Program-made: the position numbers and the translations under genes | Notes under the pieces: generated by a model | What the model saw: the letters and a program-made list of their open reading frames with translations, nothing else | The model's database searches: none | What the model was told of the DNA's origin: nothing | Shown here: positions 8,819 to 17,067 of the stretch, piece by piece | How positions within the stretch are numbered: position 1 is the first letter of the stretch | Layout: each line of letters begins with the position of its first letter | Origin: Nitrospirota bacterium | Lineage (GTDB): Bacteria; Nitrospirota; Thermodesulfovibrionia; Thermodesulfovibrionales; JdFR-86 | Direction: 5' to 3' | Assembly (NCBI GenBank): GCA_016207905.1 | Contig: JACQZC010000053.1 | Span: forward strand, 1-58,048 | Length of the DNA: 58,048 nt

Positions 8819-8990
8819 TGAGATTCTGAAATAAATTCAGAATGACAAATCGGTTTGCAGATATTCAATACTGTCACCCTGAACTCGTTTCAGGGTCTTA
8901 TAACCAGTTGATTTTATTAGATGCTGAAATAAATTCAGCATGACAGGCTGAGATTGCTTCTGCCGAGGCATCGGCATCGCAATGACAGAA
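8819..8990. repeat. Second cluster of palindromic interspersed repeats
   Basis: Contains ATTCTGAAATAAATTCAGAAT again, CCCTGAACTCGTTTCAGGG, GATGCTGAAATAAATTCAGC and an ATTGCTTC...GCATCGCAATGACA unit. The last unit is the same type found inside the DUF4384 gene at 54872-54912. No gene supported in 8820-9019. Confidence 0.85.
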
Positions 8991-9019
8991 AGGGGAGAAA
9001 ACCATAGTGCATTTTTTAC

Positions 9020-9049
9020 TTGACAAAAGGGGATAAAATCCTCTATTAT
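9020..9049 (+). promoter_or_regulatory. Near-consensus promoter upstream of leader repeat copy 2
   Basis: TTGACA at 9020-9025 and TATTAT at 9044-9049 with an 18-base spacer. Transcription from here would run through the repeat at 9086-9246 into the cytochrome operon, giving a 5' leader of about 310 bases. The sequence just after the -10 resembles that after the promoter at 16477-16505. Confidence 0.65.
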
Positions 9050-9085
9050 ATAACTTTAGTTTAAAGGAGCAAGGAGAGACCCTTT

Positions 9086-9246
9086 GACAGGCTCAGAAAG
9101 ACGAAAGAGGAGACAGAGAGTGCAGAAGTGCAAATAAAATGCATAAAAGTGAACCAAAACGGAACTAAACGGAACTAAAATGGAAGCAGGAATCATTAAA
9201 AATCAATGGGTTATGAGGCACCCCCCCTCCCTATAAACTAAAGCAA
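9086..9246 (+). repeat. Dispersed leader repeat, copy 2
   Basis: Near-identical to 14-172 over about 155 bases, including the tandem CGGAACTAAA pair. The core TTATGAGGCACCCCCCC...CCTATAA can close a stem with a C-rich loop. It lies between a strong promoter and the 13-heme cytochrome gene. Bases 9247-9350 hold no recognisable feature besides AT-rich sequence. Confidence 0.85.
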
Positions 9247-9368: not shown

Positions 9369-11090
9369 ATGTTCAAGCTTAATGCTGAACGGATTGCTGG
9401 AAAGGGAAGCATCTGGATGATTCTGCTTGGCCCGTTTTTTGGAGTGCTGTTTGTATGCTTAATCCCCTTTGTGTCAATGCTCGTTGCCGTAGTGTTTCTC
9501 ACCCGCATAGCCTCGGCAAGTGTCCTGTCTTCCGATGAGGCAGGGATGTGCATGGGCTGTCATTCGACTCCTATTGTCAAGACCTTTAAAAACGGAGAGA
9601 AACTCTCTATAGTTCTGAGCGAAAAGCACTTCAAAGACACTGTTCATAGTTTCCTTGGCTGTTCGGACTGCCACAACGACATCTCTATGGACAATCATCC
9701 ATCTGCGGTATATGGTAGCAAGCGGGAATTTAGCCTCCATGTCACATCTGCATGCAGAAACTGCCATCCAGATGAGCAAATCCTCAAAAAGCCCCTTCAC
9801 CAGCACGCAGTAACCAGAGCAAATGCACCGCCTTGCTCTGAGTGTCACGGCTCGCACTCCATCAGGAAGTCTTCTGGATGGAAAGAAACCGCATCTGACT
9901 CTCAGTACTGTCTTACCTGTCATAAGCAAGACCTGAAGCTCTCTTTAAACGGAGAGGTCGTTTCTCTAAAGATTGACGAGACGGTCATCAGGAAATCTGT
10001 TCACTCAAATCACAATTGCTCTGACTGTCATGTGGGGTTTTCTAAAAAGGAGCATCCGCTTAAGAAGTTTGAAGGGAGGAGGCAACTCTCTGTGGAGATA
10101 TCAAGCAGTGTATGCAGGAGATGCCACCCTGATAAGTACGCGGAGTTTGAAGGCAGTATCCACTTTGGAATGCTCAAGGAGGGAAACCTTAAGGCACCTG
10201 TGTGCACAGACTGTCATGGTGCCCACTCTGTAGGGCCAAAGGCAATAGCAGAGACAATGGCAGGTGTGCCATGCAGAAAATGCCATGAGGACACTTTTGA
10301 GGAGTTCAAGGGAAGCGTTCATGGTGTGGCAAAGGCAGGTGGCAAGGCAGCCGCACCAATATGTTCGTCCTGCCATTCTGCACATGGGGTAAAACCAGCT
10401 ACACTTTCAATGTCCCCAAAGGCAAGATGCACTGTCTGCCACAACAACGCTGAATATATGCATGACCAGTGGCTTCCGAATGCGGCTATACATCTCGAGG
10501 CAGTTGCCTGCACAGCATGCCATGTCCCTAATGTAGGACGCAGGATATACCTTAGTATAACGGACAGAGATTCAGGCAAGGTTATCTCAGAGCCAAAGGT
10601 AAAAGAGCTTTTGGGCGCAGACTATGGGATGCTAACAGATAACCCTAAAGGAGGCATAGGGGGCAGACAACTCTGGGATATCTATCAGAGGCTCAACGAT
10701 AAGGAAACCTCAGTGAGACTAAAAGGCACAGTTGGCATTCAGGACTCCATAAAGTCCCATTGCGTAACCGACAAGAGCAAGGCACTAAGGCAGTGCGATA
10801 CCTGCCATAACGCCCAGTCAGATTCCTTTAAGGCTGTTTCGCTTTCAGTCATAAAGGGCAATGGCAAGGAGGGGTTCGTCGATGTCAACCCCAAGGCGCT
10901 GAGTTCGATATTCTCTGTGTTGCCTCTTAACCAGTTCTATGCCTTAGGCTCAATGCGTGTGAAAATACTGGATTTCCTTGGCATATTCATGGTTCTGGCA
11001 GGTGCGTCATTCCCTGCAGTGCATATAACCATGAGGATACTGACAAGACGGCTGAGGGCTTCCAAAAAACATAAAGGACATGGGAGGTGA
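9369..11090 (+). CDS. Membrane-anchored 13-heme c-type cytochrome
   Basis: A 573-residue protein with thirteen CxxCH heme sites, in order CMGCH, CSDCH, CRNCH, CSECH, CLTCH, CSDCH, CRRCH, CTDCH, CRKCH, CSSCH, CTVCH, CTACH and CDTCH. Hemes 2-5 and 6-10 repeat the pattern CSDCH..CR.CHP..C.xCHGxHS, suggesting internal duplication. A hydrophobic helix at about 18-48 anchors the N-terminus and a second at about 533-553 lies near the basic C-terminus, so the heme domain should be periplasmic. It precedes a cytochrome b gene (5-base gap), so the pair probably moves electrons between the quinone pool and periplasmic carriers. The start is well set by AAAGGAGG before ATG 9369. The substrate cannot be told from sequence. 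Confidence 0.93.
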   Translation: MFKLNAERIAGKGSIWMILLGPFFGVLFVCLIPFVSMLVAVVFLTRIASASVLSSDEAGMCMGCHSTPIVKTFKNGEKLSIVLSEKHFKDTVHSFLGCSDCHNDISMDNHPSAVYGSKREFSLHVTSACRNCHPDEQILKKPLHQHAVTRANAPPCSECHGSHSIRKSSGWKETASDSQYCLTCHKQDLKLSLNGEVVSLKIDETVIRKSVHSNHNCSDCHVGFSKKEHPLKKFEGRRQLSVEISSSVCRRCHPDKYAEFEGSIHFGMLKEGNLKAPVCTDCHGAHSVGPKAIAETMAGVPCRKCHEDTFEEFKGSVHGVAKAGGKAAAPICSSCHSAHGVKPATLSMSPKARCTVCHNNAEYMHDQWLPNAAIHLEAVACTACHVPNVGRRIYLSITDRDSGKVISEPKVKELLGADYGMLTDNPKGGIGGRQLWDIYQRLNDKETSVRLKGTVGIQDSIKSHCVTDKSKALRQCDTCHNAQSDSFKAVSLSVIKGNGKEGFVDVNPKALSSIFSVLPLNQFYALGSMRVKILDFLGIFMVLAGASFPAVHITMRILTRRLRASKKHKGHGR

Positions 11091-16476: not shown

Positions 16477-16505
16477 TTGACAAATCAAAAACCATGCCTT
16501 ATACT
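16477..16505 (+). promoter_or_regulatory. Near-consensus promoter upstream of leader repeat copy 3
   Basis: TTGACA (16477-16482), a 17-base spacer and TATACT (16500-16505). Two palindromes follow: CTACTAA/TTAGTAG around 16504-16525, and GTTGATA-AA-TATCAAC around 16552-16567. Both look like operator sites over the transcription start and early leader. The transcript would enter repeat copy 3 and then the PilZ gene at 16741. Confidence 0.7.
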
Positions 16506-16574
16506 ACTAACTATAGTTTTAGTAGATTATAGCTATAAAACGATGGTTGAGGTTGATAAATATCAACTTAATCA

Positions 16575-16650
16575 ACATGGGAATCCTTAAAAATCAAGGG
16601 GTTATGAGGCACCCCCCCCACCCCATAAACTAAAGCAAAGGGATGATGAA
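16575..16650 (+). repeat. Dispersed leader repeat, partial copy 3
   Basis: Matches the 3' third of the copies at 14-172 and 9086-9246: TTAAAAATCAA, then GGGGTTATGAGGCACCCC, then CATAAACTAAAGCAAA. TTATG and CATAA can pair around the C-rich loop. It lies about 90 bases before the PilZ gene and downstream of a strong promoter. Confidence 0.75.
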
Positions 16651-16740: not shown

Positions 16741-17067
16741 ATGCTTAAAAGGAAAAAAGTGCGGATTTCAATAACAAAGGATGTAACAATCAATAAGACT
16801 ACAAAGGCAGAAGGACTTGACCTCTCAGAGGAAGGGATGTATCTTTATACGACAAAGACATTCATTACAGGTAATATCATTCATATTAAGTTCAGGCTTG
16901 GCAATGAAACCCTTAATCTTACTGCAAAGGTCCAACACTCGCAAGCAGGCATAGGCATCGGAGTGAATTTTACAGACCTTGACAGAGAGACATTAAAGAA
17001 GATAAAAAATTACATCTCTATTAAGAGCCAGCTTTTACAGAAAGACTTTAGAGGAGAGAAATCATGA
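16741..17067 (+). CDS. PilZ domain protein
   Basis: A 108-residue single PilZ domain. The N-terminal KRKKVRI stands where c-di-GMP-binding PilZ domains have RxxxR, and GLDLSEEGMYL supplies the (D/N)xSxxG motif. Then come the beta-barrel strands and IGIGVNFTDLD. It probably binds c-di-GMP, although the first motif is not a clean RxxxR. It overlaps the substrate-binding protein gene by 4 bases, linking the two in one transcript. No clear ribosome site precedes ATG 16741. Confidence 0.85.
   Translation: MLKRKKVRISITKDVTINKTTKAEGLDLSEEGMYLYTTKTFITGNIIHIKFRLGNETLNLTAKVQHSQAGIGIGVNFTDLDRETLKKIKNYISIKSQLLQKDFRGEKS

Follow-up and report, generated by a model that had tools for sequence, protein, structure and literature searches.

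A dispersed promoter element with an IHF consensus core, probably derived from a phage-type TerS control region, precedes host operons in a Nitrospirota bacterium

Here we describe an element which recurs 43 times in the genome of a Nitrospirota bacterium of the order Thermodesulfovibrionales (G000), each testable copy lying just upstream of a gene that it faces. It was followed up from the window, the whole stretch of 58,048 nucleotides that was analysed, which is the entire contig C53. The explanation that we favour, and consider rather probable, is that of a dispersed mobile promoter element which acts at the DNA level, stems from a phage-type TerS control region and now drives host operons.

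A sequence-only reading of the window had noticed a leader repeat in three copies ahead of unrelated genes and had proposed for it a pairable RNA structure. The repeat is real: positions 14-167 and 9086-9246 are 93% identical across 152 bases (E 3e-60), and the stretch 16580-16638 is a relative of its 3' part (92% over 59 bases, E 9.5e-17). The three copies do stand ahead of unrelated genes, whose products are a sigma-54 type regulator, a multihaem cytochrome and a PilZ protein. Sigma-70-like promoters, each with 11 of the 12 consensus bases, precede copy 2 (9020-9049) and copy 3 (16477-16505). The count of three was too low, as the genome carries 43 copies of the core.

All three copies are on the + strand. 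Copy 1 (14-172), which precedes the sigma-54-type regulator gene, has lost its 5' part and promoter at the contig start; no promoter is visible because the contig begins at base 1, and the copy starts at base 14 because the contig break falls within the repeat. The end of contig C80 carries a promoter module finishing in the same sequence that opens C83, C50 and C53. Copy 1 shows the phased repeats GGAACTAAAC GGAACTAAAAT GGAAGC at 89-115, of the 10-11-bp periodicity found in non-redundant copies, a predicted IHF site AATCAATGGGTTA at 129-141, which matches the consensus WATCAANNNNTTR exactly, and, as placed by the alignment of 52 copies, a C-run with right arm TATAAATCAAG at 149-172. In copy 2, the operator-like box O1 (AACCATAGTG, 9000-9009) lies 20 bp ahead of the TTGACA of a promoter TTGACA-18-TATTAT (9020-9049, 11/12 consensus positions), and box O2 (AACTTTAGTTTA, 9052-9063) is located at the presumed transcription start. 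The leader that follows (9086-9246) consists of dispersed-repeat filler, phased repeats (9161-9187, from the periodicity analysis), a predicted IHF site AATCAATGGGTTA with an exact consensus match (9201-9213) and, from the alignment of copies, a C-run and right arm TATAAACTAAAGC (9221-9244), with the multihaem cytochrome gene at 9369. Copy 3 has the promoter TTGACA-17-TATACT with box O2 AACTATAGTTT (16477-16519), a left arm GTTGATAAATATCAACTTAATCAAC (16552-16576) of another repeat class, common to L014, L020, L021, L023, L025 and L026, a predicted IHF site AATCAAGGGGTTA matching the consensus (16592-16604) and a C-run with right arm ATAAACTAAAGC (16612-16636), and precedes the PilZ gene at 16741.

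A DNA search gave 41 matches in the own genome, and a sequence-only profile built from 52 copies gave 43 strong core matches in its 2.03 Mb. A promoter pattern search added to these four core-less modules. Three of them precede pheT-like, lolA-like and aconitase-like genes and are scars of internal deletion; the fourth is cut at a contig end. The next downstream gene was on the same strand, with the core just upstream of it, in 42 of 42 testable copies; the 43rd runs into a contig end. Pfam matches were obtained for 37 of the 40 first downstream genes scanned. These genes encode cytochromes, FdhD, a sigma-54 regulator, thioredoxin, PfkB, ribosomal protein L9 (rplI), phosphofructokinase, a response regulator, ligases, DnaJ, TatD, DnaX, FolD, PilZ, HisD, phasin, GreA, a universal stress protein, enolase (eno), FtsJ, transketolase (tkt), a helicase and others. 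About 24 further copies are present in the genome of a sister genus (G001), where they precede argH, mnmA, mutL, miaA, selA, ribH, pyrE, surE-like and similar genes, names which were read off translations only, with no clear gene at 2 of the ~24 copies. These copies (L041-L064) are often preceded by TATATTAACCACAGAGGACACGGAGG, apparently one more repeat dispersed between genes. Only two downstream genes, for PfkB (82% identity) and a glycosyltransferase, are common to both genera. This is about chance level, so that the comparison of downstream genes, suggested as a check for a shared regulon, revealed none across the genera; the copies thus spread mostly within each lineage.

The whole core was present in no other genome among 176 of the order, where other matches were mostly short (20-30 bases). 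In public genomes, the same core and arms were found only in the Thermodesulfovibrionales bin JAUXOF01, which is G001 (the copies are identical), and a search of public genomes and viral contigs with the exact core pattern gave this sister genome only, plus one unrelated match to a Chitinophagaceae contig. No copy was found in phages or plasmids by blastn.

The upstream part of the element reads AAACCATAGTTCATTTTTTACTTGACA, 17-18 bases, TATTAT or TATACT, and then AACTATAGTTTATAG. This promoter module is present in at least 33 of the 43 copies, and 32 modules were recovered by pattern. The near-consensus promoter sits between two AAC[C/T]ATAGTT boxes: O1 lies exactly 20 bp ahead of TTGACA in all modules with both boxes scored, and O2 begins 30-33 bp after the TTGACA start, giving an O1-O2 spacing of 50-53 bp, mostly 51-53, which corresponds to five turns of the helix. 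In contig C54 of the sister genome a TerS gene is preceded by a related arrangement (AACTTTAGTT, TTGACA, AACTATAGTT). Behind O2 there is a filler whose length varies and which often consists of other dispersed repeats or TerS gene scraps, followed, left of the core, by direct repeats of 10-11-bp periodicity, with words that depend on the class: GGAACTAAAAC, AGTAAAGCAAA, TTAAAGCAAAA, CGGAAGCAAAT and GCAAAGCAAAA in the own genome, TGTAAACCAAA and AAATGCTTTAC in the sister genome, and a set of its own (AAAGCAAAAGCAAAGC) in the element of contig C75 of G000. Autocorrelation of the repeats, in non-redundant copies against dinucleotide shuffles, gave z values of 7.1 (lag 10), 6.8 (lag 11) and 4.6 (lag 21). 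The distances from O2 to the IHF site (20 distinct values, 78-476) are clustered at a period of 10.5 bp (P = 0.003, a value possibly inflated by the gain or loss of whole 11-bp repeats), and for this reason a DNA complex is favoured.

Right of the core there is a C-run and then the right arm (ATAAACTAAAGC, TATTAAATTAAAGC or AGTAAACTAAAC). Whether compared as direct or as inverted repeats, the arms on the two sides co-varied weakly in G000 (P = 0.03, with relatedness ignored) and not in G001 (P = 0.31). A module beginning AACTTAGGAAGGGAAAAGGGAGAATGAACGCTTGAACA recurs right of the core in about 10 copies (L008, L010-L012, L023, L024, L026, L030, L031), which suggests that 3' parts were shuffled separately from 5' parts. 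A promoter-like module, GGACATTTCTAAATTGGCTTGACA, lies right of the core in L015, L033, L034, L037 and L038 and leads into different genes.

The only invariant part of the element is AATCAA-NNNN-TTA (alignment columns AAA.TCAA....TTA), which is the IHF consensus WATCAANNNNTTR. Of 67 distinct copies from the two genera, 65 match it exactly, variation being confined to the four N (TGGG, GGGG, TAAC, CCAC, GGAC, TATG, TAGG, TTGG), and it occurred at 0 of 23,595 positions in the flanks of the copies. The window contains four such sites in all, about the number expected from shuffles, and three of them are the copies described here. The fourth lies in another dispersed repeat adjoining copy 2. A RIP-like palindrome (TGTCATGCTGAA...TTCAGGGTGACA, 8872-8945, - strand) is located just upstream of copy 2, with the IHF consensus AATCAACTGGTTA in mid-repeat, and its centre resembles the core of the element beyond the consensus itself. 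Elsewhere in the order, this motif was found immediately behind tRNA genes, within palindromic repeats and, by eye, before sigma-54-like promoters, all of them places where IHF sites are expected. The form TAAAATCAA[T/G]GGGTTA lies directly 3' of tRNA genes (Lys, Leu, Glu, Val, Thr) in other Thermodesulfovibrionales (L105, L107, L109, L110, L112, L114, L116, L121, L122, L125 and others); these are probably integrase attachment sites with an IHF site.

The own genome encodes IhfA (128.9 bits against an NCBIfam cut-off of 111), an IhfB-like protein whose best match is IHF-beta (94.8 bits, under the cut-off of 115), and also HU. Only one gene of the HU/IHF family was found in the sister genome. 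The exact consensus suggests that IHF would bind at the core of the element.

Complete copies carry in addition a gene of about 140 codons for a TerS-like protein, usually directly after the core, while most copies keep scraps of it or nothing. The gene adjoins the element at seven loci, five in the own genome and two in the sister genome. In G000 it lies between the core and a Clp-like ATPase gene in C75, before dnaX in C24, and before the core and ahead of pfkB in C96, and it is shortened beside the element in C82 and C11; in G001 it adjoins the element in C59 and C54. A gene like that for a REP-associated tyrosine transposase (L067, 2062-2580, +) lies beside the TerS-bearing element upstream of the Clp-like gene. 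Homologues of the TerS-like gene are found in other genomes immediately upstream of TerL, in Mu-type clusters. The structural model of the protein (mean pLDDT 78, pTM 0.43) has three N-terminal helices arranged as an HTH, then two long ones and a helix at the C-terminus, and thus matches the domain order of a small terminase, namely N-terminal HTH, central helical oligomerisation part and C-terminal segment. The match to PF10668 (E 0.0016, 18.6 bits) was below the cut-off of 22, a PHROG was matched at E 5e-4, and Foldseek with the model gave no match at E below 0.001. We therefore call the protein TerS-like, on the basis of gene neighbourhood and domain order, the profiles being sub-threshold and the fold search non-significant. 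A search for it in viral contigs and phage records found none.

The own genome also has a Mu-type late cluster in contig C1, encoding Mor, endolysin, a TerS without HTH, TerL, Portal_Mu, protease, major head and tail proteins. Host genes lie on its left, and there are no early genes in that stretch (L157 from ~14064, L158). The C-terminal tail of the C1 TerS is like that of the proteins linked to the element. It is possible that this cluster is gene-transfer-agent-like.

The layout of the element suggests that its ancestor was the promoter, operator and binding region of a self-controlled phage-type TerS gene. This region may have turned mobile or been copied by recombination, giving rise to about 43 copies and mostly losing the TerS gene, and copies would have been retained where they drive a host operon. 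Inspection by eye revealed no target-site duplication and no convincing terminal inverted repeats at the left edge (AAACCATAG) and the right edge (AAAGC). At each copy, the leader DNA would be bent by IHF, and the HTH protein would probably bind to the phased repeats, different repeat words possibly serving different TerS variants. The bent complex of IHF and TerS-like protein might then tune the downstream operon, as a block or tuner that probably limits transcription just past the start point, in the manner of the IHF-bearing Correia element in the mtr leader (PMC2649163). If so, a large set of core metabolic, translation and replication operons of one lineage would stand behind one phage-derived promoter/IHF module. 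Promoter take-over by a mobile element has rarely been documented on such a scale, and the element would offer a testable case of a self-controlled phage gene region becoming a host regulatory network.

The same repeat could instead be purely selfish and MITE-like, its IHF site and phased repeats serving its own mobilisation and its uniform orientation reflecting the purging of harmful insertions. Amplification has been lineage-specific, with only 2 downstream genes common with the sister genus, copies are mosaic, internal-deletion derivatives exist, and small repeats with IHF sites are known, such as Correia elements (PMC2229807). We regard this explanation as unlikely: 42 of 42 copies upstream in the sense direction far exceeds the 71 of 113 Correia elements reported 5' of genes in a single gonococcal genome (PMC2649163). 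Insertions 3' of genes should be neutral, yet none was seen, and the promoter/operator geometry has been maintained across copies.

A different role for the same parts would be that of a packaging start site (pac/cosB-like), where the TerS-like protein and IHF, on the repeats and the IHF site, would let the resident Mu-type terminase package the chromosome from there. The order of parts is as in lambda cosB, where TerS sites R3 and R2 flank the IHF site I1 (PMC4856287), and a TerS gene lies inside the element. The resident TerS of C1 has a C-terminal tail similar to that of the element proteins, and because it is without HTH, as is the TerS of RcGTA (PMC6854486), we keep this explanation as a case of low probability. 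We consider it improbable since the sites occur within transcribed leaders downstream of a strong promoter and keep to gene starts, neither of which packaging needs; moreover, TerS is missing from most copies, no cosN-like site was recognised, and the element was on no phage or viral contig searched. Its boldest form, which we hold to be very improbable, is that the 43 elements are chromosomal packaging or recognition sites, with HTH-bearing TerS from a few of them and IHF marking, for a domesticated Mu-type particle, where housekeeping operons begin. Such a gene-transfer system would start at chosen genes and not at random, the particle's own TerS having lost its DNA-binding domain.

The proposal of a cis-regulatory RNA or small RNA family survives in part only. 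A cis-acting leader common to unrelated operons behind promoters is strongly borne out by the 42 of 42 copies in the sense-upstream position, and the element does lie within the presumed 5' leader. The RNA part of the proposal failed: there was no Rfam match, consensus fold, convincing covariation or better pairing within copies, and evidence for a separate small RNA was absent. Arms that differ yet stay pairable had been taken as a hint of selection on RNA structure, a claim that was not upheld. RNAalifold predicted no pair over 52 copies, two-sided change was seen in one pair only of the named TTAT/ATAA stem, and of 51 copies 11 and 19 had its two inner pairs broken. In some copies there is partial complementarity between the 5' end and the right arm, and pairing within a copy was no better than between copies (permutation P = 0.21). 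Some leaders do fold stably alone (L014, z ~ -5.7 against mononucleotide shuffles). The leader from O2 to the IHF site ranges from ~78 to 476 nt, and the conserved columns coincide with a DNA-binding consensus. In the window, only tRNAs reached the Rfam threshold, and 7 loci at E up to 5 held nothing relevant. A conserved short leader peptide was rejected by eye, as the reading frame changes from copy to copy through single-base indels in the core; several apparent leader peptides look like scraps of the TerS start. The conserved features, namely an IHF consensus with free N, helically phased repeats and phased operators, are signatures at the level of DNA. An RNA function is thus largely refuted and, in our estimate, highly improbable, and a plausible but wrong RNA-motif reading is corrected. 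A chance or assembly artefact, which several copies at contig ends might suggest, is already refuted by the census: copies occur in the interior of long contigs, ahead of different intact genes, and another genus has copies of its own in a separate genome. The probability of an artefact is negligible.

Putative mobile promoters are promoter-bearing sequences which recur ahead of unrelated genes; unlike these, the element adds a dedicated predicted protein-binding architecture and a candidate regulator gene. RIP/RIB (BIME-1) repeats of E. coli are dispersed palindromic repeats with an IHF site, whereas the element is not palindromic around its IHF site, bears a promoter and lies 5' of genes. 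Correia elements (CREE/NEMIS) of Neisseria are short dispersed repeats in tens to hundreds of copies, with sigma-70 promoters and often 5' of genes; their long form carries an IHF site, and the IHF-bearing copy in the mtr leader lowers transcription (PMC2649163, PMC2229807). Like them, the element lies near genes as a short dispersed repeat and combines a promoter with an IHF site. It differs in that no convincing terminal inverted repeats, target duplications or RNase III-type hairpin were found, in that all testable copies face one way, and in its phased repeats, twin operators and linked TerS gene. In lambda cosB (R3-I1-R2-R1), the bend made by IHF brings R3 and R2 face to face for TerS (PMC4856287). 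The element similarly has repeats on one side of the IHF site, repeat-like words on the other and a TerS gene adjacent; in contrast to cosB, no cosN was seen, there are 43 chromosomal copies, a promoter lies upstream and the right-hand sites are putative. No profile link of the TerS-like protein to lambda gpNu1 was seen. Since convincing terminal repeats or target duplication, and a nicking site, were not seen, we file the element as neither Correia nor cosB. Functionally its nearest relatives are Correia elements, and architecturally the nearest is lambda cosB; it is best read as a mobile promoter and DNA-architecture element laid out like lambda cosB, with what appears to be a Correia-like function.
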